From an uncultured Lachnospiraceae bacterium (GTDB taxonomy: Bacteria; Bacillota; Clostridia; Lachnospirales; Lachnospiraceae), in contig CACZBK010000027.1 in NCBI GenBank assembly GCA_902779395.1, positions 1 to 40,436 on the forward strand: a stretch of DNA of 40,436 bases, given 5' to 3'. Made by a program: the position numbers and the translations under genes. The notes beneath the pieces were generated by a model. That model worked only from the letters and a program-made list of their open reading frames with translations, did not search any database and was not told where the DNA came from. Below, one piece after another: positions 7,587 through 30,639 of this stretch (position 1 is its first letter; each line of letters opens with the position of its first letter).

Positions 7587-7948
7587 CAGTTTTCCTCCGC
7601 TTCATCGATCATCCTGCGAATCTCTTCCGCTTCTTTTTGTGTAAGCTTTCTGCCCTTTGTGAATGCGGCAATAAATGCCGGCAGCGATCCGTCAAAGGAA
7701 TCATTCACAAACTGTTCACTCTGCAGCGAATAGAATTGTTCTCTGGATAAAACAGAAGTTACTGTACCTCCGTTATTCTGAAACACTCCCTTCGCACAGA
7801 GCTTACGTATCACGTTATGCGTAGTCGTTCTTGCCCAGCCGAATTCCTCCGCCGTAAGCTTGACCAGCTCATGGCTTGTAATAGGCTCCCTCTCCCATAT
7901 CATCTCTGCAAATCTGCTCTCGATAACTCCAAGCTGTATATCTCCCAT
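7586..7948 (-). CDS. blaI: BlaI/MecI-family transcriptional repressor
   Basis: 120 residues starting at the ATG six bases after GGAGG; a TTG two codons upstream is less likely. The sequence has the BlaI winged-helix pattern: an N-terminal EMIWEREPITSHELVK region, the recognition helix RTTTHNVIRKLCAKG, a beta wing, then a C-terminal dimerisation helix (QKEAEEIRRMIDEAEE). Repressors of this family bind dyads of their own promoter and are inactivated by cleavage when the partner M56 sensor is triggered. The M56 gene begins in the last base of this gene's stop codon. The symbol is by family; the natural inducer here need not be a beta-lactam. Confidence 0.9.
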   Translation of the reverse strand: MGDIQLGVIESRFAEMIWEREPITSHELVKLTAEEFGWARTTTHNVIRKLCAKGVFQNNGGTVTSVLSREQFYSLQSEQFVNDSFDGSLPAFIAAFTKGRKLTQKEAEEIRRMIDEAEEN

Positions 7949-7971
7949 GATCAACCTCCAAAAACATAATA

Positions 7972-12050: not shown

Positions 12051-13935
12051 ATCGAGTAGGAGGGGAAATTGAATAATTTCCCCGACCTCTCACACCACCG
12101 TGCGTACCGTCCGGTACACGGCGGTTCCTTAGTTTTCACATATTTGCAGATAAAAGCCAGTCAAGGACATATATCCGAGATTGGCTAATTCTTTGTTGGT
12201 AAGCGCCTGGTTTAACACCAAAGCTGACCGCCATATTCCTTTGCGGCAGTTGGCTATCTCAGATACCGCCCATTCGAGTAAGCCCAAGCTACGCAGTTTC
12301 CTTATTCTCGTCCGAACTTTCTTCCATTGTTTCCAATAGATTGCCCTTATCCTGTGGCGTAGCCATTCGTCCGTGTCTTGTAACAGTCTCTTCATATCTG
12401 CCAACTTAAAGTAATTAACCCATCCACGGATGAATTGTTGTAGTTTCAGTATACGATACTCATTACTCCAAGCATTATTTCTATCCGTTAACTCCCGCAG
12501 TTTCTTCTTCATCTTTTCCACCGACTTTGGGTGTACTCGGAATCGCAGTCCCTTGTGGTTGTAAAACGTATATCCCAGATACTTTACCCTGCTGATATGC
12601 GCTACACTTGTTTTATCCCTGTTCACCTTGAGAAATAATTTATCCTCGATGTACGGCAGGATATTTTGAAGCGTACGCTCGGCACTTTTTCGGCTTTTAC
12701 AGAAAATCATGCAGTCGTCTGCATAACGGACAAATCTGTGCCCTCTGCACTCCAACTCCTTGTCTAACTCATTCAGCATTATGTTACTTAACAGTGGACT
12801 AAGTGGTCCGCCTTGTGGCACGCCGACTTCTGTCTTTTCAAACAACCCATTTGCAACTACTCCGGCATTCATATATTTATGAATAAGTGAAATAACTCTG
12901 CCGTCTTTTATGGTTTTCGACAAGACCTCGATAAGCTTGCTTTGGCATACATTGTCAAAGAACTTCTCCAAGTCCATATCCACCACATAGACATAGCCGT
13001 CGTTTGCATTCTTTTGGCATTGCTTTAAGGCGTCGTGTGCCCCTCTGTTTGGGCGAAAGCCGAAACTGTTTTCTGAAAACTGCGTCTCAAAAATCGGTGA
13101 TAATACCTGTGCGATTGCCTGCTGATATACGCGGTCAACTACTGTCGGTATTCCCAGTTTCCTAACCTTTCCCTTTTCTTCTTTGGGTATTTCTACCCGT
13201 CTGACTGGATTCGGCTTATATTTTCCGTCTAAAATCTGTTGGTTAAGCTCCTTGCCGTGCTTTCGCAAGTACGTTAGAAGTTCTTCCACGTCCATTCCGT
13301 CCACACCGCCCGAACCTTTGTTGGATTTCACTTTCTTATACGCCGCATTAAGGTTGTCGTTATGCAAAATCTCTTCCAACAGTCCAGCCTTCTGCAAGTC
13401 TGTGATGATGTCGGTGTTTTCAGCAATCCTTGAACAAGCGGACGCCTCTGCATACTCTTTCTGTTCCGCAGATACCATTTGCAGATGACCTTCTGTATGA
13501 AGTTGTCTGTCCTTAAATTTGTCCTCGGTTACATTCATTTCCTAACATCTCCTAAAGTTCAGCCCTTCGCCGATGTTTGCAACCATCGGTTTACTATGGC
13601 TTCAGCTGACTTCTCGCCATTCGTTGTTACTACGGTTTCTTACTCTGTTTCCACCGCTGACGAGACCTCCCTGGGTACCACACGTTTCTTTCCCTCCACG
13701 TATCTGCCACATTTACTATGCACAGTTCCGTACAGTTATTGGGTTTCGGTGTGTTAGGCCACCTTACCCCCATACATAGCCTGATGTGATTTCTGTTCGT
13801 CAGACCAGAGGTTTGCTTACAGCTTCCTTCAGATTCCACCTCACGATAGACACCCTTGCTGTTCAGCTATATCCTTCCCACTGTCGGGCGGATTCGGGAC
13901 TTTCACCCGTTAGAAACGTGCGCCGCCAGGCGCAC
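12051..13935 (-). mobile_element. Complete group II intron, probably class C (about 1885 nt)
   Basis: The minus-strand 5' end is GTGCGCC (the group II GUGYG start), reading on through the conserved GGGTGAAAGTCCCG block. At the 3' end a domain V-like hairpin (GAACCGCCGTGTACC to GGTACGCACGGTG) is followed by a domain VI stem (GGGGAAATT/AATTTCCCC) and the end CTACTCGAT, with a candidate branch-point A seven bases from the terminus (12057). The RT gene sits in domain IV. It is inserted six bases downstream of a perfect terminator hairpin (13942-13971), the target preference of class C introns. All recognisable parts are present, so it may be active. Confidence 0.85.
12129..13538 (-). CDS. ltrA: Group II intron reverse transcriptase/maturase
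   Basis: 469 residues. An N-terminal region precedes RT blocks NKGSGGVDGMDVEE, GKVRKLGIPTVVDRV, NSFGFRPNRGAHDAL and DMDLEKFFDNV, with the catalytic YADD at 272-275. A maturase (X/GIIM) domain follows (RGWVNYF, then WKQWKKVRTRIRKL). There is no C-terminal HNH endonuclease, as in class C introns, which use other routes to prime. AGGAGATGTTAGGAA precedes the ATG. The protein splices the intron RNA and carries out retrohoming. No frameshift or missing catalytic residue seen. Confidence 0.95.
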   Translation of the reverse strand: MNVTEDKFKDRQLHTEGHLQMVSAEQKEYAEASACSRIAENTDIITDLQKAGLLEEILHNDNLNAAYKKVKSNKGSGGVDGMDVEELLTYLRKHGKELNQQILDGKYKPNPVRRVEIPKEEKGKVRKLGIPTVVDRVYQQAIAQVLSPIFETQFSENSFGFRPNRGAHDALKQCQKNANDGYVYVVDMDLEKFFDNVCQSKLIEVLSKTIKDGRVISLIHKYMNAGVVANGLFEKTEVGVPQGGPLSPLLSNIMLNELDKELECRGHRFVRYADDCMIFCKSRKSAERTLQNILPYIEDKLFLKVNRDKTSVAHISRVKYLGYTFYNHKGLRFRVHPKSVEKMKKKLRELTDRNNAWSNEYRILKLQQFIRGWVNYFKLADMKRLLQDTDEWLRHRIRAIYWKQWKKVRTRIRKLRSLGLLEWAVSEIANCRKGIWRSALVLNQALTNKELANLGYMSLTGFYLQICEN

Positions 13936-14752: not shown

Positions 14753-14764
14753 AGATACCCGTAG

Positions 14765-14796
14765 AAAAAAACAGGAGCGTTTTCTCACGCCCCCGT
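14765..14796 (-). terminator. Rho-independent terminator after the lipoprotein gene
   Basis: On the minus strand ACGGGGGCG pairs with CGCTCCTGT (two GU pairs) around TGAGAAAA and is followed by a T-run. It probably ends the long operon that starts near 26.3 kb. Confidence 0.75.
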
Positions 14797-14833
14797 TAGA
14801 TGCCTTATCTCTCAGAACTCCGTACAGATACCT

Positions 14834-15730
14834 TTACTCAGAAATATATTCCGCCAGCTTTTCTCCCTGTGGCAGCTTTATGGGATCATCCTTCGGAATA
14901 ATACTGTTATATTCCTCTTCAGAGATCATATCTGACCATTCACCGATCCAGACCGGATAACTCCCGATCATTTCATAAGAATCTACTATTTCCGCTTTTT
15001 CTTCATCGCTCAGATCATAATAACAGTATGTATAACACTCAGTTCCCGAATCAGATCGTATCGCGCAAAACACGGGAAAATAATCGCCAAGAACAGTATC
15101 AAACTGATACCATCCGGTACTGCTGTTATTCATTCCTGCAGCACTGTCACACCGCAGCATACCACCCGGATAGAGCTCCGATATCGACCTGTAAGGCGTT
15201 GAAAATGCCATCCTTACCTTACTCCCGTCGTAACCGTATATATCGATCACTGCCCCATAGTATGTTATGATCAGTTCTTCCTCTCCATCAGAGTCAACAT
15301 CATAATAAAGATATCCCACTTCATCATTATTGCTTGCGAAAGGCCAGCCATGCTGTATCAGCTCCGTTTGGAAGCCCATATTCTCAAGCTCTTCTTCGGA
15401 ATATCTGTTATCCTGCGCCTCCTTATATCTGTCCAATATCTCCATATACCCTTCTTTTCTTGCAGTATGCAGCTGCGCGACAGCCGGTTCAGGTTCATTT
15501 TCCCCGCCATTCACTTCATTCTCACCATCACCGGGTGTAACATTTTCCAAAACTGCTTCAGTGGGTTTATTTTCCGTTTCGGCTTCAGTTGGCTTCGCTT
15601 CGGCGGGCGATGCTTCTGCCGGCGTAACTTTATATGTACCTCTGCTTTCCGATGTGTTGGCATCATCACAGGATGCTAACAGCATGCAGCCCAATCCGGC
15701 CAGTATTATCCGTAAAACTCTCTTTTTCAT
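14834..15730 (-). CDS. Lipoprotein of unknown function
   Basis: 298 residues from the ATG preceded by GAGG (7-nt spacer); seven residues upstream an in-frame ATG exists but is less well placed. MKKR and a hydrophobic stretch end in a lipobox LASC (Cys21). A Pro/Glu/Thr/Ala linker (about residues 30-90) carries the globular part: a helix with YSEEELENMGFQTELI, then a beta-rich module with DVDSDGEEELIITYYG, a D-x-D-x-D-G-E pattern seen in bacterial VCBS/FG-GAP-like or calcium-binding loops. Family not recognised. No clear promoter or terminator separates it from the gene 86 bp upstream, so it may be the last gene of the operon. Confidence 0.75.
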   Translation of the reverse strand: MKKRVLRIILAGLGCMLLASCDDANTSESRGTYKVTPAEASPAEAKPTEAETENKPTEAVLENVTPGDGENEVNGGENEPEPAVAQLHTARKEGYMEILDRYKEAQDNRYSEEELENMGFQTELIQHGWPFASNNDEVGYLYYDVDSDGEEELIITYYGAVIDIYGYDGSKVRMAFSTPYRSISELYPGGMLRCDSAAGMNNSSTGWYQFDTVLGDYFPVFCAIRSDSGTECYTYCYYDLSDEEKAEIVDSYEMIGSYPVWIGEWSDMISEEEYNSIIPKDDPIKLPQGEKLAEYISE

Positions 15731-15781
15731 AGCAAACCTCTGCATCATCATTCAACGATATTTTCTGCCGATCGTTATATC

Positions 15782-15792
15782 AGACTATCAGT
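15782..15792. promoter_or_regulatory. Possible BlaI-type operator half-site
   Basis: AGACTATCAGT here equals one arm plus centre of the operator at 7997-8015 (read on the minus strand). The opposite arm is not conserved. It lies 52 bp upstream of the lipoprotein start. Could be chance. Confidence 0.2.
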
Positions 15793-15815
15793 AAATGTAT
15801 CTGTAAAAATACAGC

Positions 15816-16667
15816 TCATTTTTCCTCTCTCTCTCCGTATATCCCGGGTTCTCCTTTTGCCCCCGGAAAGAAATAGCCCACAAGTTTCTCCGCCGATTCA
15901 TCCCGCCTGGGCAGTATGATCTCAGTTTCTTTAGGATATTTTTCTATAGCTCTGAAAGCTGAAAATCTTATCATATTGATCAGATCTATCCTGGCATCCG
16001 GTCCCACAGCAGCCATGAATTCAACCCTGAGCCTCCCGGAAGACAGCCTGTGAACAAGAAAGAATCCATCTATTCTGTCATCCGATGTCACACAACAGGA
16101 AACATCCGTATCATACCAATCTATAGGAAGCGTTGCCAGATCCTCAAGGTGCTCCCTTTTCGTATGAAAAATGCAGTTCATTATCCCGCGTCTGAAGATC
16201 CGTACCTGCAGATCATCAAGCGGCCTCAGATTTGCTGCTGTTTTTTTCTTCTTCAGGACATCCAGCTTTTCCAGGTCTCCTATGGTGACGTGGATGTTAC
16301 TGACCTCTTTCTCGGTAATGCTAAAGCCTGCAGCCTTCAGGATCTCCACCATCTCCCCGGCCTCGGAAGCAGCAAATGAAGCTACGCTCTTAACTATCCC
16401 CTCTTCACTGATATCCTTAGCATACTCCGTAAAAAGGTTCTCTCCTGCCTTGTTATCCTTCGCAATGATCCAGGAAAGATGTGACTGGGGATCCCTGTTC
16501 TCATCCTCAAGATACCTGTATTCCCATACCATGGCAGCTGATGTTTCGGTCCCTTCTTCCATGGCAATGGCCTGGTAAGACGAGCGTCCTATGTTCTCGG
16601 CTATATCCTCCGGTAAAAGCTCATCCAGTTCTTCAATATTCTCTTCAGTGATCACTTGTTTCTTCAT
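15816..16667 (-). CDS. GNAT-like protein, paralogue of the one at 24826-26265
   Basis: 283 residues; AAGGG 10 nt before the ATG, 13 bp after the preceding stop. Its C-terminal 110 residues (from about 170) line up with the C-terminal part of the 479-residue protein at 24826: EDLATLP with EDIRSLP, DVSCCV with DLSCVI, LVHRLSSGRLRVEFM with LFHRLSGGNLKLELL, YFFPGAK with KIIPKAK. Alternating strands and helices in both halves suggest two GNAT-fold modules, but the acetyl-CoA loop (R/Q-x-x-G-x-G/A) is not seen here, so catalysis is doubtful. It may be a structural or regulatory partner of the giant protein's operon. Confidence 0.65.
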   Translation of the reverse strand: MKKQVITEENIEELDELLPEDIAENIGRSSYQAIAMEEGTETSAAMVWEYRYLEDENRDPQSHLSWIIAKDNKAGENLFTEYAKDISEEGIVKSVASFAASEAGEMVEILKAAGFSITEKEVSNIHVTIGDLEKLDVLKKKKTAANLRPLDDLQVRIFRRGIMNCIFHTKREHLEDLATLPIDWYDTDVSCCVTSDDRIDGFFLVHRLSSGRLRVEFMAAVGPDARIDLINMIRFSAFRAIEKYPKETEIILPRRDESAEKLVGYFFPGAKGEPGIYGEREEK

Positions 16668-16680
16668 ATCTGCTTACCCT

Positions 16681-17715
16681 TTATAATCCCTGTATAATTC
16701 CGGCGGCTGCCGTCCCGTCTTTAAAAACACGGCACTGTATGTCATCAGATAACAGTATCTTATCGCTGTGAGATCCATCATAGTCATCCACACCATCCCT
16801 GACCAGTTCCGAAAGAGCTTTAAGCTCAGTCATACTTCCCGTATCCGACAGAAAAACAAAACGACCGTCCTCCAGACAAACCACCTCACTGTGTGCAGGG
16901 AGCTCGGTTCTTAAGATATCCGAAAATGCCATCCTGTCCCCTTTTGCCTCAAAAAGGATCATACTGCTTCTCTTAAGCGTTCCTCCTGATAGCATCTCCC
17001 TGACATATCCCAGATAAGCCCTGTTGAAAAAGGCCGTATCCTTATCGATAAAACGCCTTGAATCTGCACTTGAAAACGCCATGAATCCCATTCCTATGGC
17101 AAAGCCCAGGAAAACACAGTTATACCCCAGATAGTAAGTGATCACAGCACCGCAAAGGACCGGAGCATATATGCTGAAGGGATGGAAAAACGGCTTTTTC
17201 CCGAATACTATATAGTATTTTATAAGATGAACTGCAGTCATGAACAGATAAGCAAGCTCCATCAGCACCGAATAATAATACATATCCGCGAGAAAATGTG
17301 TATCCGTCCCGAAAAGCTTTCTGGTAACAGGCCAGAGCAGGCATAGGATTACGAAAATGAAAGCCGGCATAAGATACAGCACGATATGCCTCCGCTGATG
17401 ATCCCTGCTGGCATAGAGCTTATAGTCCATGTACAGGAAAAACAGAAAGAGTAACGCGGCTATCAAAAGCTCAACGATAACATCTGCGATCACTACGACA
17501 TAAATCCCAAATTTAGATACCCCTTCAGGCATTAATACCCTAATAAGCTCAAATATGATACCCAGTACTATGCATACCGCCATGGAAACAAATATCCTGA
17601 CTCCGGTATCCCTGCCTTCCCTTTTATCCTTTGGGATAAGGCACATACCAAACAGTATCATGAACGCAACCAGATCAAATCCGAGAGTTATCTGATAATC
17701 TTCTCCTAGGATCAT
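16681..17715 (-). CDS. Seven-helix membrane protein with degenerate GGDEF-like tail
   Basis: 344 residues. Seven hydrophobic helices fill residues 1-220. The remaining 120 residues begin with DKDTAFFNRAYLGYV, which has the spacing of the D-x-L/T-G-x-x-N-R-R start of GGDEF domains, followed by strand-helix alternation (SMILFEAKGDRMAFSDIL, then EVVCLEDGRFVFLS). There is no GGDEF motif: its place is taken by LEDGRFVFL. So it cannot make c-di-GMP but could still bind a ligand or partner. GGGGAGG lies about 11 nt upstream of the ATG and only 3 bp separate it from the preceding gene. Sensor role is inferred from architecture. Confidence 0.6.
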   Translation of the reverse strand: MILGEDYQITLGFDLVAFMILFGMCLIPKDKREGRDTGVRIFVSMAVCIVLGIIFELIRVLMPEGVSKFGIYVVVIADVIVELLIAALLFLFFLYMDYKLYASRDHQRRHIVLYLMPAFIFVILCLLWPVTRKLFGTDTHFLADMYYYSVLMELAYLFMTAVHLIKYYIVFGKKPFFHPFSIYAPVLCGAVITYYLGYNCVFLGFAIGMGFMAFSSADSRRFIDKDTAFFNRAYLGYVREMLSGGTLKRSSMILFEAKGDRMAFSDILRTELPAHSEVVCLEDGRFVFLSDTGSMTELKALSELVRDGVDDYDGSHSDKILLSDDIQCRVFKDGTAAAGIIQGL

Positions 17716-17718
17716 CTT

Positions 17719-18384
17719 TTATGCTACCTCCCCGTAGAAAGAATCCCTCATGGCAAAAAGGTGGGCGTATATAAGATATACGGCAAATACCAGAGGAGTG
17801 ATGTTGCTGACGATCGTAACATTCAGGAAAACATGTGCGGCAAATACCGGGATAAAAAGCGCAAATACCCGCGTTCTTCTCCTGTATGCGATGATAAGCG
17901 TAAATATCGCGTATATAAAGATGGGGATAAAGGTAAGGAGCTGATACAGGGTGGCCTCCAGTCCTCCTATGGTGATCACCACGGAAAGCCCTGCCAGTGA
18001 CCCGTTCATCACTGCGATAATGCCCGCTATGACTGCCGGCAGCCAGAAAAGCGGCATAAACCGTTTAACGGCCTTCTCCTCCCATCCCGTTCTTAAAGCC
18101 AGATACAGGCACCACAACGCACAGAAAACATCAAGCGCCACAAAAAATAACGTAAAGCAGAAGGTATAATACACCGATTCAATATCTTCCAGTCCCGTCC
18201 CCTGAAGGATATAAACAGCTGCGTCTGAAACAGCCATTACAATATCCGTCAGTATCAGCGCAAAATACACCTTATCCTCCGGCTTTCCTCTTCTGCGGTA
18301 TAACGTAGTATAGAAGATCATCCCAAACAGGATAAAAAGCGCAGCCCCGTCAACTATTGAAGCAAGCTTACCATAATATGTCAT
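17719..18384 (-). CDS. Seven-helix membrane protein without output domain
   Basis: 221 residues, almost all of it seven transmembrane helices (for example LFILFGMIFYTTLY, FCFTLFFVALDVFCALWCLY, VFAVYLIYAHLFAM) with short loops; the chain ends 8 residues after helix 7. Layout equals the membrane half of the next gene downstream, so the two look like a related pair, one with and one without a cytoplasmic tail. AAAGGA sits directly before the ATG, with GAGAGG further up. No family recognised with certainty. Sits 47 bp after the giant gene. Confidence 0.65.
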   Translation of the reverse strand: MTYYGKLASIVDGAALFILFGMIFYTTLYRRRGKPEDKVYFALILTDIVMAVSDAAVYILQGTGLEDIESVYYTFCFTLFFVALDVFCALWCLYLALRTGWEEKAVKRFMPLFWLPAVIAGIIAVMNGSLAGLSVVITIGGLEATLYQLLTFIPIFIYAIFTLIIAYRRRTRVFALFIPVFAAHVFLNVTIVSNITPLVFAVYLIYAHLFAMRDSFYGEVA

Positions 18385-18431
18385 ATCCTTTGTATCCTCT
18401 CTGTTTTTTCACCGTTACGTCGCCTTCAACC

Positions 18432-21400
18432 TCACTCAGGAAGATCATCCTTTAAAAAGCTGTTCAGATTCTTCGCAGCCTCTAAAAAGTTACCTCCGAT
18501 CCGACTTACAATGTAGCCCATTCCCACATTTCCTATATACTTAGCCCAGTTGTTTCTTATGACATTCTGCATGACCCTTCCGAAATCATAGCTCTTAATG
18601 TCGACCTTTTCATTAAACCTGTCTTTACAGAACCGCTTTAACTGTATCTGTGAGATCCTGATATGATAGTCAGCTATATCTTTCCGCTTCTCTTTGATCT
18701 TCTTTTTGATTTCGGCTGGTATATCATCACTAAGCCCATTATTCTCAGTTATATACGGTTCGGTATACGTAATATACTCCTCGACCTTCTCCCTGAACAG
18801 CTCTCCCAGCTTTTTATCGACCTCTTTCTCAATCTCCTTATCGCCCTCTTTAACAACCACTTTAACCTTTGTTGTCGTCTCCTCGTCAAAAAGGCCTTGC
18901 AAATGAAACTTGGTCACCTTCTGCTGATCTTTCAGATCAAGCCTCATTAAAAGCTCCTGCGTAGCATCATTTTTGGCAGCCAGCCCGGCATGTCTCTCGT
19001 TATAAAGCTTATATATCTCCTCGGTAAGCTTCTGTTTTTTTTCTTCAGAAAGTTCATTCCGATCCTGCAGACTTCGCAGCTCTTTTATCTTTCTTTCCAG
19101 CTTTAAGACCCTTGGTATATCTTTTTCATATACTGTAAGTCTCTCTTCGACCTCTGCTGCGTCCATTTTCTCCAATGCATCCATAAGGCCCGCATAAAAA
19201 AAGCTGCTTCCTCCGAACTGCTTGTATATATCATCCGAGACATTAGTCGGAACCAGTTTACCAAAAACAGCATGTGCTGCATCCAACTGTTCCGCGGTTC
19301 CCTTTTTTGAGATCCATTCTTTATAATAATCTTCCCAGATCTTTCTGAAGCCTTTAAAATCCGGCATCACCTTCTGTAACCCTTCCTTACCCTTTATATA
19401 TATCTCTTCCGTAAGCTGCTTTTCTGCGTCCAGTATCCCGTCAAGATACTTCTTATTAAAATCTGACCTCTTGTCAACCTCAGCGATCCCCTTAGATTTC
19501 TTTCCCTTAATATGAGTATTATCCAGCAATTCAGCGATAAATTCATTCTTGTCTACATGGTCGAATTTGTCGATCGCTGACTTGAATATGGCTCCCCTGT
19601 CCAACTCTCCAAAATCATAATCATCATCTGAAATACGTCTCGCCTCACGTTGACTAATATCAGACATGACAGAACTTATCATATCAACTTTGTTATGCCT
19701 GTCCCCGAAGGTATCCAACCCGGCGATGTCACTCTTGATCTTGTCGATCATATCATTGATATCATTGATGGATTTCTGAAGTCGCAGCTGTCCCTGTGAA
19801 AAATTGTAGATGGAAGACGGAAGCTTTATTCCAAGCTCCTGTGCCTTGATAAGGGCTACGGATATCCTTTCTCCGGTCTGATCATCTTCCCCCATTTTGA
19901 GAACCTTTGCAAAAGCAGCCTTAACCTCTCTCTTCTTAGCATCATTATAAAAAGCTGCAAATTCCTGATCCTTCATATCGAGCAGGCTGTTAAAGGAATC
20001 AAAGAACAGATCGACATCGCCATCTGCCGCTGATGTCATCATCTTTGTAATGGCCGCCTGCTGTTCCTTATTAAATACTGACGCATTACCATAGTCTATC
20101 AGTGTTCCCTTATCATCGCTTATCATGATATTACCGGCATGAAGATCCGCATGGTAATAACCGCCGCCAAAGATTGCCTCCGTCAGCCATGTTTCCGTGA
20201 GATCAGCCATGATATCACGCTTTTTGATGAGCTCATTAGCCTTTTTGATAAGAAGCTTCTTTGTCTGAAGTGTCTTGGCAAATTTCTCATGTGAAAAAGG
20301 TATATCACTGCGAACCCGCTCGCTTCCGTCAGGATTCTTCACCTTACCGTTTACTTCTTCTCTTAACCGTTGTCTTAAGCTCTCCGTCTCAAGCAGTATA
20401 TCATCAAGGTTCTTACCATCCGCCAGTTCAAGAACAAGCGAATTCACCGTAGGCGCTATGAGATTGTTGACTTCCTCCGATCTGACATCTTTATGCTTTT
20501 CGGTGTTGTATACAGCACCTTTACTGATATTTTCACACTCGTTGGTAAGATCCAGCTCTTTATAGTAGTTTTCCAGCTGTCCCTTATAGGTTGCCTCCAT
20601 TCCGGGATCTGTATCCTTTGCGCATTTGAGCATTATCTTTTCCTCACGCTTCATGCGGTTCTGCACATCAGGCCGCAGGAGCTTTATGACTACCTGCTTT
20701 CCTTCAGCAGGCAGCTTGGGGCCATACATACGGCAGAGGAAGGTCTGTCCTACGGAAGCCGCACCAAGATTCTTTACAACATCTATCTTTTTAACTGTCC
20801 CTCCCGAGCGTTCTATCATGGCATTTATCTGAGTTTTAACAACACGCTCAGGGATAGGCGGCAGCTTAGACTTAACATCCCTTAAAGCAAGCCTTATCTC
20901 CACGGGAAGCGTTTCCTCAGGCAGGCCCTGCATCATCTTCTGGAAAAGCGGGCCCGCTCCGCGGATGAGTCCGGCCAAGTAATTCGCCCCCACAGCGGTC
21001 CGGATCTTTTCCTTACGATACTTGTCCAGCAGCTGCTTATCCTGTTCAGTCAGCTTATCCTTATCCTGAGCATTCAGCCTATTCTTAAGCTGAGCAGGTT
21101 GATATTCAAGATACTCCTTATACTCTTTGGAAAGCTCAGCTTCTGACTTACCCATCAGTGAGGAATACTCCTTTAGATTCCTTTCCTCTATCTCCTTTAT
21201 AAGCTCATTATTCGAATATTGCCGCTCCTGGATATGTCTGGCCCCTCTGAGCACGGAAGCTAACATAGCCCGCTGATCCAATACCGGCATTTGCTTAAAG
21301 TAATTATCAAATACCTTTCGGATAAACTTACCCTGCCCTTTCTTTGAACGCGCGGTGTTCTTCATTATGCTCTCAAGGTTCTCCCTGCTATCCTTCTGTG

Positions 21401-24400
21401 ATTCAGCAAAAACATTATCAGCAAACTCTGACACATCTCTCTGAAGCATAGCGCAGGCCTTTGACACACTTGCATTCATAGAATTGTGCATTGATGATAA
21501 CAGACCTGAGAAATCTTTATCTTTCTTATTCTTAAGTATCTGCTCAAGTTTACTCTCTATATCCTCAAGGCTCGCAGCATCCCTGCATTTACCTTGACTC
21601 AGATGATGGCAAAGAGTATTTATGTTATCCGATATCACATTACATAAGCTTTCTTTATTATCACCGAATATCTTGTCCAGGGACATCTTCTTAAACAGTT
21701 CCCCGATGATATCCTTATTATCGTCCCTGCTGTCCCGGACCAGCTTAGCCAAAGCCGGTATATTCTGAAGGAGTATGGTCCGGACAAACTCTTCGGGTTT
21801 ATTGGCATACTTATCCATTATCATGGTATCCTGCGAATAAATGAACTCCGCAAGGAAATTCTGAACCTCTTTTTCTTCAGCGGTGAAATCGTTCTGCTCC
21901 GCGATCACCTCCGTTTTATACATGGATACATTTTTTTCCAGCTCCTGCATCCTATCGGCATCGATCGTCATAAGCTCGGTAAGCTCCACGCCGTTTATCA
22001 TCTGCTCGCTCTTTATGGAATTATTTATCATGTCTTTTACCGCTTTAACGGTCTTTGAACCGTCTACCAGCTCATAGGCATATCTGGCCATATCCAGACG
22101 GCTTATATCATTGAAATCCTCCCTCTTCATACCCAGTTTTTTAACAAGGAAATTTACGAGGTTGCTCCTGATCATCAGATGCTCTCCGCTCGTTAACCGG
22201 CGTTCTTCATTCGCATAATCCCGAATAATATTCTTGAGATCTGTGTTGCTGTAATTGTCAGGATTATCCATCATATTATTTTCTATACGCTGGACCAAAA
22301 GCTTTGCCGATGCCTCTACCGGGATCCTTGCATGATCTTCAATTATATATAAGCTTTTATCTTCCTTCTGAAGAAGACGCACCTTTCTGCCATACATCTC
22401 AACATCCACGACACCGGTGCCGCCGGACTGTAAGTCTTTGAGCGTATCCTTCATCTTTATCAGGTTTGTGATCGCCTTAGCTTTAGTCTTCCGATCGACT
22501 TTAGGCCCGGTAAACGCAGCAGTGAAATCATAATTTCCCTTTAATACGTTTATTGCAAATGCCGCATCAGCACTCACATTACCCTTCTGCTCATGATGGA
22601 CCATCTCTGTCCATTCTCCCGCGATAATGTTGTTTTCGGAATAATGGAGCAGCTGCCCCATCGAGACAGCATCATCATCCTGGTCCAGGCCATCTTTCAG
22701 GGTATTGAGGACATCTTTTTCATAACTCAGACTCATCCATAACTGACGGGCCAGCTCTTTCTCCTCAGTATTTTTTTTGCCATGGCTCCAATAATCCATA
22801 AGACTCTTTATGGTCAAGCTGTACTCTGCAGCCACCTCATCAACAGCATCCTTTGTAGCCCTTACATTCTTTATTGACTCAAGGGTATTATACAGTTTTA
22901 CCACATCATCCTTGGCTGCCTTAAGGCGGTCATCCTTCTTTTTCCTGTTGACAAGAAGCTTCATAAGCCCCACTGCCAGCTGCATGCGCGCCGTTCTTAT
23001 GACCGTTTGATCGTTCGTTTCTTTTTCTACTATCTCCCTGTTTTTCTCCACCTCTGTATTGGCCGCAGCGATCTCTTCCTGACTGAGATCGAAGAACTTA
23101 TCCTTATCCACCTCACCTTCATGGGCATTTAAAGACTCAGGATCTACTACACTTCCCTCCTTGAAGTTCGCCTCATCCTTCTCCAGATCCATATAACCGC
23201 CGGCCATATCCATATCTGCCTGAGCCCGCAGGTCGACATCATATTTAGAGTCGATCCCTATGCTTCTGAATACATTTTTTATATCTTCTCTGACACCTTC
23301 AGACCATTTGGAAGTACGTTTATAGACTCCTGATTTGAACTTGTGGCCTGCAAACAGATAGGGGATACCTCTGGTGACGGTCTCCACCACTGCAGCAGGA
23401 ATTGCACAGGCACCTTTAAGATATCTCCTGAATATCCTCCGCCCAGCCTCCAGATCCTTCCAGCCTTTGGTCAGGCTGTAATCTACCCTCCAGCGCTTTT
23501 TGCTTCCTGCAAGATACTTCGAGCCGAAATTAAAGACAGAAGACAATATCTTGATTGGCAGCTTTATAGCCTTTCCGGCAAGCTCTAAAGTATTGGCGGC
23601 CAGCATGGTCGCTGCTCCGACAGTTCTGTCAGCAAGGCCGCCTGTCAGCTGATATCCTTGAAGCACGCGGAGAGCGGCAATCTTCATGTACCGCGCCACA
23701 TTCTTCTGGAACCTTATCCCTAACGGATCAAGCGTCCCCTGCTCCCGCTGATATTGTCTTATTTCATCAATAAACCTATTCCTGATATAGATATTATCAT
23801 TTAGAGCTACAAAATTCTTCCAGGTGGGTAGTAACCCAGTTCTATCCCAAGTCTCCATATCATTTCCAGACTGAATCCTGTGATCATTATCCAATGAATT
23901 TATCAGCCCTCTTCTGACAGATGAAAGCTGAAATCTGATATTATCCAGCTTCAGCTGATCCTTTATAGCCTTTATCTGCGCAAGGCGGACTCTGCGCCTT
24001 TTTGTCATGAACAGCGTACCACGTTCAAAAGTATATTTATCTATACGCGCCATTAACGCATCGTAGACTTTACCCAGGTTTTCCCGTTCCGACTCATTTA
24101 TCTTGCCTTGTCTTTCCTCTCGGTTGATAAGTTCGCCTGACTTTCCCGGCTTATACGCGTTGATGCCATGAAATATATCTGCGGCAGTCTGTTCATCAAA
24201 GGAGTGTCTCTCAAAAAGATCCCTCCTGATCTTAAGATAAGCAGAAAGAGCCTCTTTTATCGATTTCATATACGAACTGTCACCGGAGTTAATGTCCACG
24301 CTCTTAAGATCAAAAGCTATACCAAAGGTACCGTAATCACCGGTTCGCTTCTCATATTCTTTAATAAGCTTCTTGTCCTTTTTCTTCTGGGCGCTGGTCT

Positions 24401-24767
24401 TATCCTCAACCTCGCCACTGACCGCATCACGGGTAACCTTAGCCTTTTCTCTGAGTCTATCCCTCTCTGTCTGAGCATAGGCTCTTCTAGTTGCAACTTC
24501 CTTATGATACTCTGTTGCCAGCTTTTTTGAACTACGCGTGGCATAAGGTTCATCATCGTCGATCACCTCTATATTTCTGGCAGGAACCGCTCTCTCCGGT
24601 TCATTTATCCTCACATTCTTTTTCTCCGGTTCATTAATGTTGTCAGGAACATTGAGAACATTGCGACCCTTAATCTCCTCATTTGCAGCATCGATCCCCT
24701 TGTTCTTTTCGCCGTTTATCTTTAAAACTTTCAGTGAATTATTTTTTTCAATATTGATACCATCCAT
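18432..24767 (-). CDS. Giant protein (2111 aa) with embedded UbiB/ABC1-type kinase domain
   Basis: AGGAGG lies 8 nt before the ATG. No signal peptide. The first 80 residues are polar with NEPE repeats; 355-420 is a mildly hydrophobic helical stretch; most of the rest is charged, helix-rich and largely unrecognised. Residues about 1265-1600 follow the UbiB/ABC1 (ADCK) atypical kinase family: GPLFQKMMQ (KxGQ region, K1277/Q1280), LGAASVGQTF (the Ala-rich loop, Q1341), VVIKLLRP (K1362), HADLHAGNI (D1541) and LIDYGN (D1558, metal site). Canonical UbiB proteins are about 500 residues and act in quinone or lipid metabolism; 1250 extra residues before and 500 after the kinase are unusual. Catalytic Lys and Asp are kept, so ATP binding is likely. 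Substrate unknown. Confidence 0.85.
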   Translation of the reverse strand: MDGINIEKNNSLKVLKINGEKNKGIDAANEEIKGRNVLNVPDNINEPEKKNVRINEPERAVPARNIEVIDDDEPYATRSSKKLATEYHKEVATRRAYAQTERDRLREKAKVTRDAVSGEVEDKTSAQKKKDKKLIKEYEKRTGDYGTFGIAFDLKSVDINSGDSSYMKSIKEALSAYLKIRRDLFERHSFDEQTAADIFHGINAYKPGKSGELINREERQGKINESERENLGKVYDALMARIDKYTFERGTLFMTKRRRVRLAQIKAIKDQLKLDNIRFQLSSVRRGLINSLDNDHRIQSGNDMETWDRTGLLPTWKNFVALNDNIYIRNRFIDEIRQYQREQGTLDPLGIRFQKNVARYMKIAALRVLQGYQLTGGLADRTVGAATMLAANTLELAGKAIKLPIKILSSVFNFGSKYLAGSKKRWRVDYSLTKGWKDLEAGRRIFRRYLKGACAIPAAVVETVTRGIPYLFAGHKFKSGVYKRTSKWSEGVREDIKNVFRSIGIDSKYDVDLRAQADMDMAGGYMDLEKDEANFKEGSVVDPESLNAHEGEVDKDKFFDLSQEEIAAANTEVEKNREIVEKETNDQTVIRTARMQLAVGLMKLLVNRKKKDDRLKAAKDDVVKLYNTLESIKNVRATKDAVDEVAAEYSLTIKSLMDYWSHGKKNTEEKELARQLWMSLSYEKDVLNTLKDGLDQDDDAVSMGQLLHYSENNIIAGEWTEMVHHEQKGNVSADAAFAINVLKGNYDFTAAFTGPKVDRKTKAKAITNLIKMKDTLKDLQSGGTGVVDVEMYGRKVRLLQKEDKSLYIIEDHARIPVEASAKLLVQRIENNMMDNPDNYSNTDLKNIIRDYANEERRLTSGEHLMIRSNLVNFLVKKLGMKREDFNDISRLDMARYAYELVDGSKTVKAVKDMINNSIKSEQMINGVELTELMTIDADRMQELEKNVSMYKTEVIAEQNDFTAEEKEVQNFLAEFIYSQDTMIMDKYANKPEEFVRTILLQNIPALAKLVRDSRDDNKDIIGELFKKMSLDKIFGDNKESLCNVISDNINTLCHHLSQGKCRDAASLEDIESKLEQILKNKKDKDFSGLLSSMHNSMNASVSKACAMLQRDVSEFADNVFAESQKDSRENLESIMKNTARSKKGQGKFIRKVFDNYFKQMPVLDQRAMLASVLRGARHIQERQYSNNELIKEIEERNLKEYSSLMGKSEAELSKEYKEYLEYQPAQLKNRLNAQDKDKLTEQDKQLLDKYRKEKIRTAVGANYLAGLIRGAGPLFQKMMQGLPEETLPVEIRLALRDVKSKLPPIPERVVKTQINAMIERSGGTVKKIDVVKNLGAASVGQTFLCRMYGPKLPAEGKQVVIKLLRPDVQNRMKREEKIMLKCAKDTDPGMEATYKGQLENYYKELDLTNECENISKGAVYNTEKHKDVRSEEVNNLIAPTVNSLVLELADGKNLDDILLETESLRQRLREEVNGKVKNPDGSERVRSDIPFSHEKFAKTLQTKKLLIKKANELIKKRDIMADLTETWLTEAIFGGGYYHADLHAGNIMISDDKGTLIDYGNASVFNKEQQAAITKMMTSAADGDVDLFFDSFNSLLDMKDQEFAAFYNDAKKREVKAAFAKVLKMGEDDQTGERISVALIKAQELGIKLPSSIYNFSQGQLRLQKSINDINDMIDKIKSDIAGLDTFGDRHNKVDMISSVMSDISQREARRISDDDYDFGELDRGAIFKSAIDKFDHVDKNEFIAELLDNTHIKGKKSKGIAEVDKRSDFNKKYLDGILDAEKQLTEEIYIKGKEGLQKVMPDFKGFRKIWEDYYKEWISKKGTAEQLDAAHAVFGKLVPTNVSDDIYKQFGGSSFFYAGLMDALEKMDAAEVEERLTVYEKDIPRVLKLERKIKELRSLQDRNELSEEKKQKLTEEIYKLYNERHAGLAAKNDATQELLMRLDLKDQQKVTKFHLQGLFDEETTTKVKVVVKEGDKEIEKEVDKKLGELFREKVEEYITYTEPYITENNGLSDDIPAEIKKKIKEKRKDIADYHIRISQIQLKRFCKDRFNEKVDIKSYDFGRVMQNVIRNNWAKYIGNVGMGYIVSRIGGNFLEAAKNLNSFLKDDLPE

Positions 24768-24825
24768 ATCCCCATCCTCCTGATTTCCGCTCCCGACGTT
24801 TTACTTTGTCGGGGCATGATCTGAT

Positions 24826-26265
24826 CTACTCTGTATCTGAACCGGTCAGAAAACGCTTAAGTATTTCTATTTCTTTTTTCGTCATATTCTCATCATCCAG
24901 CGCATCCTCATCCCCGGGAAGCTTGTCATCCGACAGCCCTGCAGCCCTGCGCATCTCATCCCATTCCTCATTGCTTATCTCTGCCTTATCGGCGCGTAAA
25001 TATCCGCTCGTCATCATCGGCACCTTGGCTTTGGGTATGATCTTTCTGGCCAGTTCAAAACCCGCTTCGCTGTTAAAATAGCCGTATACCAGTTTATCTT
25101 CATCACCGAGATACACCGCAGTCTCATAAGCATATCCGAGAAGCTGCATCATCATTTCAACCTCGGTTTCCCCTGTTGCCTTAAGCAGTTCAAGCTTAAG
25201 GTTGCCTCCCGACAGCCTGTGAAAGAGCAGTGCCGCCATAATATGTTTTTTCTCCACGATAACGCAGCTTAAATCCTGATCAAAGACACTGCAGGGAAGT
25301 GATCTGATATCCTCTCCGATCTCCGCCTCCGGCTTGTTTAAAAAAGCCCTGATCATGCTTTCCCCTTCGCTTCCAAGTGAACTTAAGGGCGATACCTTAC
25401 TGCTTCCGGTTTCAAGATACTTATTTCCTTTCATGTCACCGATCCTGATCACATACATCCTGCCGGTGGTGAAATTGAACTCAAACCTCCAGGAATCAAG
25501 GAAATCCTCGAGTATGGCCTGCTCCACATCCTCTTCTTCACTGCCTGCTTCATTTATGAATAGATCGGTCGTGACCATTGTCCCCTCATTCTGAAGTGCC
25601 ATATCAAGTATCATTGCCATAAGGAAATTCCCGACTCCGGTCTGCCTTATCTTCTCATGTACATATAACCAGTCGATCCTGATAACGGGTGCTTCGGCCT
25701 CTTCGGGATGAAGTATAGTGTAAACCACAACTCCCGCAGCACACATGGAATCTCCCATGTGCCTCAGGGCGCCGACAGCATGCTTTCTGTCAGTCTGTAT
25801 ATCATAATAAAGCTGCTCCGGTATGAGATTCTCGAAAGCAGATATGTTTTCAGAAGTGATCCTTGTAGAGACCGGCCAGTAGCGCTCTTCAAAATCCCTT
25901 ATAAGATCAAGTGCCGATCTTAAGCGTTCTTTGTTAAAACCTGATAGAGGATTGATCGTCTTTGAAAGACTCAGAAGTGTATCTATCATAGAAAGATAAG
26001 CTTTTTCTATATCGGAAGCATCAAGCTTCCCTGCCTGCTCACAGATATTGACCAGTGACAGCCTGTCGACGAATTCTTCCAGAAGTGCATCATCCGCCTT
26101 CAGGATCCCTTCCAGGCTTTCCGCCCGGTCATCCTCATCCCCTGCAAGCTCTTCAAGCTGCGATTCCAGCTCCTCCCTGATCTCCTGCGCAAGGGCAGAT
26201 GTTTTTTCATCGACATCCCTGCTCCCGTCATCTAGCATTTCATATATCTTTTCAAGCTCGGTCAT
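24826..26265 (-). CDS. Two-module GNAT-like protein, first gene of the giant-kinase operon
   Basis: 479 residues. Residues 1-125 are helical and acidic. A GNAT module follows (about 135-290) with the acetyl-CoA motif: strand IRIDWLYV, then RQTGVGNFL (207-215; R/Q-x-x-G-x-G) leading a helix. A second, GNAT-like module (about 320-445) contains LLFHRLSGGNLKLELL and YGYFNSEAGFELAR and is shared with the protein at 15816. The C-terminal 35 residues are acidic and end EILKRFLTG. The first module could be a working N-acyltransferase. GGAGG lies 8 nt before the ATG; an extended -10 promoter is found 37 bp upstream. The giant gene follows after 58 bp. Confidence 0.72.
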   Translation of the reverse strand: MTELEKIYEMLDDGSRDVDEKTSALAQEIREELESQLEELAGDEDDRAESLEGILKADDALLEEFVDRLSLVNICEQAGKLDASDIEKAYLSMIDTLLSLSKTINPLSGFNKERLRSALDLIRDFEERYWPVSTRITSENISAFENLIPEQLYYDIQTDRKHAVGALRHMGDSMCAAGVVVYTILHPEEAEAPVIRIDWLYVHEKIRQTGVGNFLMAMILDMALQNEGTMVTTDLFINEAGSEEEDVEQAILEDFLDSWRFEFNFTTGRMYVIRIGDMKGNKYLETGSSKVSPLSSLGSEGESMIRAFLNKPEAEIGEDIRSLPCSVFDQDLSCVIVEKKHIMAALLFHRLSGGNLKLELLKATGETEVEMMMQLLGYAYETAVYLGDEDKLVYGYFNSEAGFELARKIIPKAKVPMMTSGYLRADKAEISNEEWDEMRRAAGLSDDKLPGDEDALDDENMTKKEIEILKRFLTGSDTE

Positions 26266-26302: not shown

Positions 26303-26311
26303 ATTATATCA
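26303..26311 (-). promoter_or_regulatory. Extended -10 promoter of the giant-kinase operon
   Basis: On the minus strand TGATATAAT is a perfect extended -10 (TG-n-TATAAT). The -35 region (TAGAAA at 17 bp) is weak, as expected with an extended -10. It lies between the terminator at 26333-26377 and the GNAT gene. Confidence 0.7.
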
Positions 26312-26332
26312 TTCTGCTGATGAGTTTTCTAC

Positions 26333-26377
26333 AAAAAATGCGATGCATAGATGTGATCAGACTATGCATCGCATTTT
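26333..26377 (-). terminator. Strong Rho-independent terminator ending the c-di-GMP/metalloprotease operon
   Basis: A perfect 16-bp inverted repeat (ATGCGATGCATAG core with AAAA/TTTT ends) around an 11-nt loop is followed on the minus strand by six T. It begins 5 bp past the stop of the metalloprotease gene. Opposite-strand A/T ends make it usable in both directions. Confidence 0.9.
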
Positions 26378-26381
26378 ATTA

Positions 26382-27875
26382 TCATGGATCTACAGCTTCT
26401 ATGATCCAGTTCTGTACTCCGTCTGCCCCGGGGCTGCACAAAAGAGCCTGCTCACCTTTTTTTGCAGTAAGAACACGGCCGCTCTCGTACGGAGTCTGAA
26501 TACAATAACTGCCATCCGCATTTCCCGGCAGATGCCAGCTCTGCGCATCGGCATAGCCGGTATATACCCAGATCCCTATGGTATTGCCTTCATTATCCCA
26601 CGCATTCCCCAGATCGATCAGCTTATCCGGATACTCTTTTGGTACCAGTGTAAATCTGCCATCCGAGGTATAACGAATATTCCATACGCACGGATCATCA
26701 TCCAGCGTAAGGCTGATATCGCCTTCTTCAGCACATAAATATCCTGATGCATCCGCAGCCCTGATAGTAAAACTGCCCATATTATAGACGTTACCCTTGA
26801 TAAGCGGCCACATCTTCGGATACATGCCTACATACTCGGTTTCCCCTCCGTTATCATAAGGGAGCTTGCCGTTTAATACCAGCTTATAAAATTCAAAGAA
26901 GTCATAATCGTTTTTATCCGCTGTATACTCCTGATATCCGGGAAACTGCTCAGGTCCCATATATGCATGAGTATCAGGATATTCAATCTCCAGTATCGTT
27001 CCCATATACTCAAGCTGATGCATCCATTCGTGAACCGCCACAGCCGTCGCACTCAGAGAGGGTATCTCAGGATCTTCAAGAGGCATAGTTCCCGGCTTCG
27101 GCTCCATAAGATTAAAAGTGGAATACCCTCTGGATGACGATAAACCTGCTGTTTCCAGACCAAGCATCACGTAATTGACACCAAATCCGTCTTTATCTGC
27201 GTTCCTCTTTACGTTTTCTTCACCTTCAGTCTGTACTGTGGTAAGCACTGTATCCACTTCTTTACCGGCCACATACCGGTCAATATATGGCTGTGCCGTC
27301 TCCTGAGCCAGAAACAGCCAGTCATCTCCATCGGCCTGCGTAAGCTCTGTCTCATCATCCACAAAATACAGATCTACTGCAATATCCAGGTTATGCCCTG
27401 TAATGCTCTCAAGGCTCTTTTCATAATTAAGGGCTACGGCCTCTAGATACTCCTTATCATCATCCGTCATTCTGAAGTCCAGATCCTCGAACGTGACATG
27501 AGTAAATCCCAGCCACAGAACATTATATGCTACCGGTTCACTTAAAGCGGTGTAGTCACCGGAATCATACTGATCCTTTGCCTCCTGTATCAGCTGATCA
27601 GCCTTCGCTGCCGCCGACACAAAGTATGACTCATCCTCCGGTTTTACAGACTCCGCACCTTCAGCCCCGGCTTCCTCTTCATCACCGTCACTTATTTCAT
27701 CCCCGGATATTTCATTATCTTTTTTGCTTTCACTTTCCCCGCCATCCTCATACTTCTGCTGAGGCACCAATGCTTCTTCGCTCTCTGACTCCGCCTTTTC
27801 TTTTGCGCATCCCGATATCAGAAACGCGGCACATACTCCTCCGTATATGAGCCTGATCAACTTCTGCTTTTTCAT
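26382..27875 (-). CDS. Lipoprotein zinc metalloprotease with ricin-B-like lectin tail
   Basis: 497 residues. Lipobox ISGC with Cys23 after a basic, hydrophobic signal. Residues 25-85 are a Glu/Ser/Asp linker. The middle domain holds HEWMH (282-286), a zincin HExxH motif in a helix, followed by EYPDTHAY and YQEYTA, which may give the third ligand. From about 365 the pattern is that of a ricin-B beta-trefoil: repeated strands with W in CVWNIRY, AQSWHLP and VQNWIIE (Q-x-W-like). It would sit on the outer face of the membrane and bind glycan near its substrate. GGAGG before the ATG; 25 bp after the GGDEF gene, and followed by the terminator. Peptide substrate unknown. Confidence 0.82.
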   Translation of the reverse strand: MKKQKLIRLIYGGVCAAFLISGCAKEKAESESEEALVPQQKYEDGGESESKKDNEISGDEISDGDEEEAGAEGAESVKPEDESYFVSAAAKADQLIQEAKDQYDSGDYTALSEPVAYNVLWLGFTHVTFEDLDFRMTDDDKEYLEAVALNYEKSLESITGHNLDIAVDLYFVDDETELTQADGDDWLFLAQETAQPYIDRYVAGKEVDTVLTTVQTEGEENVKRNADKDGFGVNYVMLGLETAGLSSSRGYSTFNLMEPKPGTMPLEDPEIPSLSATAVAVHEWMHQLEYMGTILEIEYPDTHAYMGPEQFPGYQEYTADKNDYDFFEFYKLVLNGKLPYDNGGETEYVGMYPKMWPLIKGNVYNMGSFTIRAADASGYLCAEEGDISLTLDDDPCVWNIRYTSDGRFTLVPKEYPDKLIDLGNAWDNEGNTIGIWVYTGYADAQSWHLPGNADGSYCIQTPYESGRVLTAKKGEQALLCSPGADGVQNWIIEAVDP

Positions 27876-30267: not shown

Positions 30268-30324
30268 TTCTCACGCCTCATAAAAAGATTTATCAGGATT
30301 TTCCCCGGCGTTCATAAGCCGGTC

Positions 30325-30639
30325 TCATTCCCCGCTCTCAGGTGTATCCTCCTGCTGAGGGATATCTTCAACCGGCGTCTGCTGCTGTGAAGCTTCCTTC
30401 GCCATCGCAGCGCCTCCTATCTCTCTTATCATCCGAAACAGCTCTATATCATTGGCTGTGAGCTTCATATTACTCTCCAGTACCTGCCCTTCCGGCGTGG
30501 TAACTTTCATCTCCACTATGGTACCTTCTCTCGCTCCGGCCGCACTCACGGCTTTCATAAACGGAAACAGCTTGGGATGTTCCTCTCCCAGTTTACCCAG
30601 TCCTGCCTTAACCTTAAAGAAATCTAACGGATTTATCAT
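30325..30639 (-). CDS. Small conserved-looking protein between two c-di-GMP enzymes, function unknown
   Basis: 104 residues; its ATG overlaps the TGA of the GGDEF-EAL gene by four bases (ATGA), so translation is coupled. Residues 1-80 could form two helices around a beta pair (GTIVEMKVTTPEGQVLESNM); the last 25 are a Gln/Glu/Pro tail. No transmembrane helix or signal. Family not recognised. Its position suggests it serves one of the neighbouring c-di-GMP proteins. Confidence 0.65.
   Translation of the reverse strand: MINPLDFFKVKAGLGKLGEEHPKLFPFMKAVSAAGAREGTIVEMKVTTPEGQVLESNMKLTANDIELFRMIREIGGAAMAKEASQQQTPVEDIPQQEDTPESGE

Follow-up and report, generated by a model that had tools for sequence, protein, structure and literature searches.

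An operon for a giant ABC1-kinase protein and its tandem-GNAT-like partners in a Lachnospiraceae bacterium: a probable payload set of a contractile injection system

Introduction

What task could join, in a single bacterial operon, a 2111-residue protein with an atypical kinase domain, two acetyltransferase-like proteins and two seven-helix membrane proteins? Such an operon lies on the minus strand of the window analysed here, a stretch of 40,436 nucleotides of contig CACZBK010000027.1 from an uncultured Lachnospiraceae bacterium, and all coordinates below are positions of this stretch. A preliminary description of the window, made from the sequence alone, saw in it a gene set matching no recognised pathway, which our comparisons have borne out, and proposed that it forms a membrane-linked modification system. 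That proposal misses the main association, which is that giants of this kind go with extracellular contractile injection systems (eCIS) and resemble eCIS payloads. We consider it probable that the operon is the payload set of an eCIS encoded elsewhere in the same genome, with the giant as the payload. The giants are read in this way because eCIS genes are linked to them in relatives, because giants and eCIS co-occur, because the genome of the window has an eCIS of its own, and because the N-termini are polar.

Results

Linkage and co-occurrence with injection-system genes

The family of giants, its common N-terminal domain (ND), the kinase motifs, the pairing with GNAT-like genes, the co-occurrence with eCIS and the adjacency of eCIS genes in relatives were all computed directly, many of the genomes in these comparisons being fragmentary assemblies. 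The giant of the window (18432..24767, minus strand) is an open reading frame (ORF) whose product is predicted, from Pfam matches and comparative genomics, to be an eCIS payload. Relatives of it stand beside eCIS genes at several places (G, C and L numbers are our labels for genomes, contigs and loci). In G028, tandem giants end 270 bp from the terminal gene of an eCIS with sheath (PF04984, PF17482), tube (PF06841), gp25, two baseplate-J, Pvc16_N, DUF4280/PAAR and STAS genes, and on the other side lie an ND protein, AAA ATPases and two eCIS_core proteins. On contig C1 of G251, an eCIS occupying about 102-137 kb is followed, without a change of strand, by some 45 kb of large proteins interspersed with eight tandem-GNAT genes, an array to which ND proteins, AAA ATPases and a kinase giant belong. 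At L140 a giant and its GNAT gene precede eCIS genes, and in G007 an eCIS_core gene is flanked by GNAT genes. The locus most like the window operon among those examined is L133, where the order is GNAT, ND-N2 protein, GNAT, kinase giant, GNAT, two seven-helix (7TM) proteins of the window types (TM221, then TM344), STAS and two eCIS_core (PF13699) proteins, the latter matched above the cut-off with E-values of 5.7e-16 and 6.2e-15. SpoIIE and STAS genes are likewise found near giants or eCIS in this lineage.

The genome that contains the window encodes an eCIS sheath (G000:C17:14290-16041) amid gp25-, baseplate- and Pvc16-like genes. Its contig C38 carries a loader-like AAA ATPase that is 67% identical to one adjoining the eCIS of G034; the contig also has two AAA genes related to it, a 7TM-SpoIIE protein and an ND hit that is weak (4.5e-5). 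Further ND proteins stand beside GNAT genes on contigs C9, C11, C23 and C29.

Among 98 genomes compared, 17 have a sheath, and 12 of these, the window's own included, belong to the same genus. When considering this genus, some part of the giant is matched in 10 of the 12 sheath-positive genomes compared to none of the 23 sheath-negative ones, and a strong ND match (E<1e-7) is found in all 12 compared to one of 23 (Fisher 1.6e-8, kinship being ignored); over all 98 genomes the strong ND figures are 12/17 and 1/81. A larger sample of 397 genomes of the family gave ND at E<1e-3 in 21, of which 11 have a sheath. At E<1e-7, a threshold that for this sample was chosen after the hits were known, 12 genomes remain, 11 of them with a sheath, and none of the nine weaker ND genomes has one. 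Strong ND is present in 11 of the 22 genomes whose sheath is at least 62% identical, and in one (G185) of the other 375.

Spread of the giant family

The giant itself was matched in 12 of the 98 genomes: its own, nine others of the same genus, G054 and G065. The matches in the last two lie in short frames of 532 and 416 codons, and that in G054 was rejected as a giant, being an ordinary-looking ABC1 protein of 525 residues with KFGQ. Of the ten genus genomes, G001, G003 and G026 match in the N-terminal part only, the kinase part being matched in the other seven, and the window's genome encodes two further ABC1 giants, of 2653 and 1975 residues, on other contigs. A search of contigs with the whole giant retrieved no relative, whereas one with an alignment of the kinase domain did. 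The best 80 of the 164 stretches that it returned make up 77 loci, which come from Lachnospiraceae, Butyrivibrio and Pseudobutyrivibrio, apart from three labelled only as "bacterium" and two as Clostridiales, and many are labelled as from the rumen or another ruminant gut site. Three other origins or roles were considered and set aside: a phage, plasmid or virus (the giant has no tblastn match in phages or plasmids, and no relative in viral contigs), anti-phage defence (the five core proteins have no PADLOC match) and a RiPP pathway (the Nif11 and HaaN matches fall far under their cut-offs).

Architecture of the giant protein

The ABC1 profile (PF03109) matches residues 1298-1585 of the giant with 68.1 bits, well clear of the cut-off of 22.9, in agreement with the UbiB/ABC1 kinase that the preliminary description had named. 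The domain as a whole covers residues 1242-1665 (19773..21044, minus strand). ABC1 atypical kinases are characterised by a catalytic Lys and by ExD, HxDxHxGN and DFG motifs. The Lys, HxDxHxGN and D[FY]G are found in all 24 giants aligned and the Asp of ExD in 22, the window giant having every one of them; the KxGQ motif lacks its Gly in 24/24, and reads KMMQ in the window. The domain thus looks intact, and ATP-dependent activity would be expected because the catalytic motifs are kept. A housekeeping UbiB enzyme was rejected on the score of 73 bits, compared to an equivalog cut-off of 487.55, and on the replacement of KxGQ by KMMQ. By the Kyte-Doolittle scale the giant has no hydrophobic membrane segment.

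ND, as defined with iterated profiles, spans some 130 residues and lies near the N-terminus in most giants as well as in shorter proteins encoded nearby. Of the giants with their N-terminus on the locus, 58 of 69 have it, and the window giant has two copies, at residues 138-310 (23838..24356, minus strand) and 593-712 (22632..22991, minus strand). The residues that are invariant in 44 sequences are the D, S, M and K of DSxxMxxxK, one Tyr and one Arg; a profile search against solved structures gave no significant match for ND. A further module, N2 (residues 361-587; 23007..23687, minus strand), also occurs in relatives (L044, L047 and L048) that have no kinase match.

Residues 1-60 (24588..24767, minus strand) form a polar N-terminus, which is a candidate loading signal by virtue of its hydrophilicity, a property of the family at large. 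Over the first 35 residues, the mean hydropathy of 47 ND/kinase proteins is -1.21 compared to -0.26 in 167 soluble controls (p 5e-17), and disorder-promoting residues are more frequent than in the controls (p 5e-4). A Met-Asp start is seen in 25 of the 47 and in 13 of 247 controls. For the window giant taken singly, 12% of the soluble controls are more hydrophilic over the same stretch.

Some other proteins were also noted. An ORF of at least 3366 residues with ND (L054, 7670-17767) runs up to the contig edge, on the same contig as the G029 giants. L046, L047 and L048 carry tandem proteins of one cluster, B12-binding radical-SAM-like by eye, near N2-type ND proteins and GNAT genes. Three short ND proteins, L035_15452 and a pair in L091, suggested ADP-ribosyltransferases by eye, a reading that was dropped as Pfam and a profile search of the PDB were not supportive, and a Fam20C hint in L088_4018 (E 0.0024), being below the cut-off, was not used.

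Tandem-GNAT-like partners

The first gene of the operon encodes a tandem-GNAT-like protein of 479 residues (24826..26265, minus strand), with a helical-looking N-terminal extension and an RxxGxG loop in its first GNAT half. A second tandem-GNAT-like protein, of 283 residues (15816..16667, minus strand), has a degenerate acyl-CoA loop. The two had been described as GNAT-like paralogues: the larger passes the Acetyltransf_1 profile (22 bits compared to 20.7), and the smaller is related to it by profile and alignment but has no valid Pfam match, its below-cut-off matches being to unrelated families, none of them at E 0.01. The second GNAT half of the window proteins is likewise without a Pfam match. 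When the family profile is compared with solved structures, the best match is 7wx5_A (E 2.1e-8).

These genes are close companions of the giants. A tandem-GNAT-like gene lies within 300 bp on the same strand for 24 of 40 uncut ND/kinase proteins (one of the 40 being the ABC1 protein of G054, which was excluded from the motif and N-terminus counts above), whereas among the other genes at these loci the figure is 36 of 691 (Fisher 1.7e-18). In the set found through the kinase domain, 45 of 65 interior giants adjoin a tandem-GNAT gene, so that homologues of the giant gene are not, with respect to the GNAT pair, mostly without their partner. The GNAT profile was trained on loci of the first set, and 14 loci are common to both sets, so the counts overlap.

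Toxin-activating acyltransferases modify toxins before secretion, and the GNAT-like proteins could conceivably do the same to the giant or to a part of the eCIS, as enzymes rather than as non-enzymatic chaperones, with the giant still a payload. We regard this as a real possibility, to be held tentatively. The [QRK]xxGxG loop is kept in 25 of 44 family members, the 479-residue protein among them, and is present in at least a near form in 33, and their pairing with large proteins would suit a dedicated modifier; however, the loop is degenerate in 11 of the 44, that is, in the 283-residue protein of the window and ten others.

Discussion

A possible route into the particle

That the giant is the payload of a particle, and that it is loaded there, we infer from the genomic evidence given above. 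The giant would be made in the cytoplasm, where its polar N-terminus and ND may mark it for the particle. The tandem-GNAT-like proteins would be its dedicated partners, holding, delivering or acylating it ahead of loading, and an AAA ATPase of the Pvc15 kind could, by analogy, load it into the tube. After firing, the ABC1 atypical kinase domain would act inside the target cell. The two 7TM proteins probably signal into the SpoIIE/STAS-type partner switch found with the eCIS lineage. Put more broadly, and with more reserve, the ABC1-kinase giants might represent an undescribed class of injector payloads of rumen and gut Lachnospiraceae, marked by ND, attended by tandem-GNAT-fold proteins as their dedicated chaperones or acylating partners, and with rumen protozoa, fungi or competing microbes as possible targets.

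Comparison with known systems

According to the available text of PMC11297309, eCIS payloads have a polar N-terminal signal in which no specific conserved sequence was detected, eCIS_core/DUF4157 is proposed to help payloads in cis or in trans, and eCIS toxins that themselves lack an eCIS_core domain are described. The AAA ATPase Pvc15 associates payloads with the particle (PMC11495950), and in eCIS operons toxins tend to be encoded toward the 3' end, DUF4157 often being part of them or close by (PMC8213781). The ND/GNAT family fits this published pattern and adds to it a definable domain and a GNAT-like partner. It shares with payloads of the PVC/Afp type the polar N-termini, a genome with an eCIS and an AAA ATPase, and the adjacency of eCIS genes in relatives; it differs in having ND, an ABC1 kinase domain, a dedicated tandem-GNAT-like gene and many copies per genome, and in that the eCIS_core domain is missing from the window genome. 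Common arrays of eCIS_core/DUF4157 (PF13699) proteins with ND proteins or GNAT genes are seen in G028, G007 and L133. As with a Pvc15-type loader, a large AAA protein adjoins eCIS and payload genes, and it is kin to the AAA protein beside the eCIS_core-bearing eCIS of G055, the likeness to Pvc15 being one of gene context.

The kinase domain has in common with UbiB/COQ8/ABC1 kinases (PF03109, TIGR01982) the ABC1 profile, an Ala-rich loop and the catalytic Lys, ExD, HxDxHxGN and D[FY]G, but is embedded in a far longer protein, without the Gly of KxGQ and far under the UbiB cut-off. Similarly, the sequence profile of the partner family matches structures of GNAT acetyltransferases, from which the partners differ by a loop that is degenerate in 11 of 44, by the unmatched second half in the window proteins and by their place mainly beside large ND proteins.

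Weighing the evidence

It seems unlikely that the giants and GNAT-like proteins are instead parts of the eCIS that stay with the producing cell and serve assembly, storage, membrane anchoring or the regulation of firing. Most ABC1 proteins are lipid-linked ATPases or kinases inside the cell, which together with the nearby SpoIIE and STAS genes would suit such a role, but these proteins are multi-copy, modular and divergent, and some are kinase-less, unlike conserved assembly factors, and the polar N-termini and eCIS_core neighbours fit payloads.

Several observations do count against a payload role. The operon in the window adjoins no eCIS gene, its genome has no eCIS_core (PF13699) match, and at 240 kDa the giant is large for a payload. 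No GNAT gene is adjacent to 20 of the 65 interior giants, and aromatic residues, which are part of the published signal score, are no different in the N-termini of the ND/kinase proteins (p 0.80). Strong ND is missing in 11 of the 22 genomes with a close sheath and in all 23 other sheath-positive ones, and G185 and G014 have strong ND with no sheath match, their ND proteins having no GNAT neighbour. An rpoB tree covering 30 of the 35 genus genomes has just three changes in sheath presence, with two independent contrasts on well supported branches; in both, the change in sheath goes with ND and with the giant, numbers too small for a test. The presence of a control gene, encoding a DUF5722 protein, is not associated with the sheath (10/12 sheath-positive compared to 14/23 sheath-negative genomes, p 0.26), but the six nearest matches other than itself (G031, G020, G001, G030, G029 and G007) all lie in sheath-positive genomes, and the lipoprotein encoded after the operon's five core genes is strongly matched in 4/12 compared to 1/23 (p 0.04).

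Lineage therefore contributes to the co-occurrence. Owing to the small number of tree contrasts, and to the fact that the control gene and the lipoprotein track lineages, the Fisher values overstate the case and the physical linkage weighs more. The further step of regarding the co-occurrence as merely the common ancestry of a few lineages, for which the scarcity of independent contrasts within the genus and the close control-gene copies would speak, is nevertheless very improbable, as the pattern is seen again in other genera and the linkage is direct in G251, G028, L140 and L133. The exceptions to the rule in G014 and G185 are ORFs of 780 and 954 residues, at L190 and L096, respectively.

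Lowest in probability is the system first proposed, in which the kinase and GNAT parts act on one target at the membrane with the 7TM proteins as sensors: the operon structure in the window and the 7TM pair found with GNATs and a giant also in L133, L177 and L182 would accord with it, but just 5 of 84 giants have a TM344-type protein within three genes and none has the lipoprotein nearby, whereas the association with eCIS is general. Of the five genes, those for the giant and its GNAT-like partner stay together, and those for the 7TM proteins accompany them in a minority of cases.

Significance

If the operon is indeed a payload set, it puts a name to payloads of one contractile-injector lineage, in one of the main families of bacteria in rumen and gut, and makes testable what Lachnospiraceae inject and into whom. 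It would also provide a recognisable loading domain where no specific conserved signal had been detected (PMC11297309, as available), place an ABC1-type kinase in an injected protein, and suggest a class of GNAT-fold partners. Contractile injection systems of the human gut are reported mainly from Bacteroidota in PMC12210884, the main text of which does not contain "Lachnospir-", and the term is likewise not mentioned in the available parts of PMC12923769, PMC11297309 and PMC8213781. Literature searches, with most subscription papers and preprints outside their coverage, gave among the matches listed none that joins contractile injection with ABC1 kinase, UbiB or AarF, none that joins it with Butyrivibrio, and none on the subject, by title, for the rumen. 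For contractile injection with Lachnospiraceae and effector, the one paper among the matches listed is on the cockroach hindgut, and the combination of contractile injection, Clostridi, eCIS, toxin, effector and acetyltransferase returned nothing.

Operon structure and neighbouring genes

The six co-directional ORFs first described, five genes and that of the lipoprotein, were all recovered at their positions on the minus strand, between two strong hairpins. The gaps originally given (3-58 bp within the five, and 86 bp before the lipoprotein gene) were closely reproduced: consecutive genes are separated by 58, 47, 3, 13 and 64 bp, the last becoming 85 bp with the lipoprotein start at a later ATG, 15730. 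Both flanking hairpins, reported as terminators, fold better than shuffled sequences. That ending the upstream unit (26333..26377, minus strand) has a z of -5.06 over 26325-26385, and the intrinsic-terminator-like one after the lipoprotein gene (14770..14797, minus strand) a z of -3.38 over 14755-14805. The extended -10 promoter placed at 26303 exists as a site (TAGAAA, 17 nt, TG-extended TATAAT; 26303..26331, minus strand) upstream of the first gene, but such sites are no commoner in the region than expected by chance (29 compared to 24.8 +/- 5.9 in shuffles). A single transcript over the operon is plausible from this arrangement.

The lipoprotein (305 residues; 14834..15751, minus strand) had been counted with the set, and the distribution of its homologues argues that it is not a conserved partner: none was seen in the neighbourhoods of the 84 giants, and strong homologues (E<1e-20) occur in four other genomes, in G001 and G034 on contigs without a giant match and in G013 and G031, which have no giant match.

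The two membrane proteins, TM221 (221 residues; 17719..18384, minus strand) and TM344 (344 residues; 16681..17715, minus strand), are related by profile. With the Kyte-Doolittle threshold set to 1.2, seven hydrophobic segments are seen in each, consistent with the seven helices first assigned, and the two have six and five at 1.6. The C-terminal part of TM344 resembles a degenerate GGDEF domain, with DxETGLYNR in a consensus of four sequences, and has no Pfam match. Elsewhere in the eCIS lineage, at L051, L060 and L071, large proteins (labelled from their sequences as 1023, TolC688 and a 412-residue protein) have N-terminal hydrophobic stretches, and the lineage may be membrane-linked rather than released.

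Upstream of the operon, a GGDEF protein with a Cache-like region and a GGDEF-EAL protein are encoded at 27901-32348, relatives of which adjoin giants in L032 and L047 by BLAST clustering. Between them and the operon, a protein of 497 residues (26382-27875) has a ricin-type lectin domain above the cut-off, is lipoprotein-like by eye, and ends at the strong hairpin that precedes the operon. Downstream of the operon terminator, a 469-residue ORF (12129-13538) is reverse transcriptase/maturase-like by its translation and probably belongs to a group II intron. Further on, at 4725-7954, an M56 (BlaR1-type) peptidase is fused to an M23 peptidase, and a gene of the penicillinase-repressor type precedes it.

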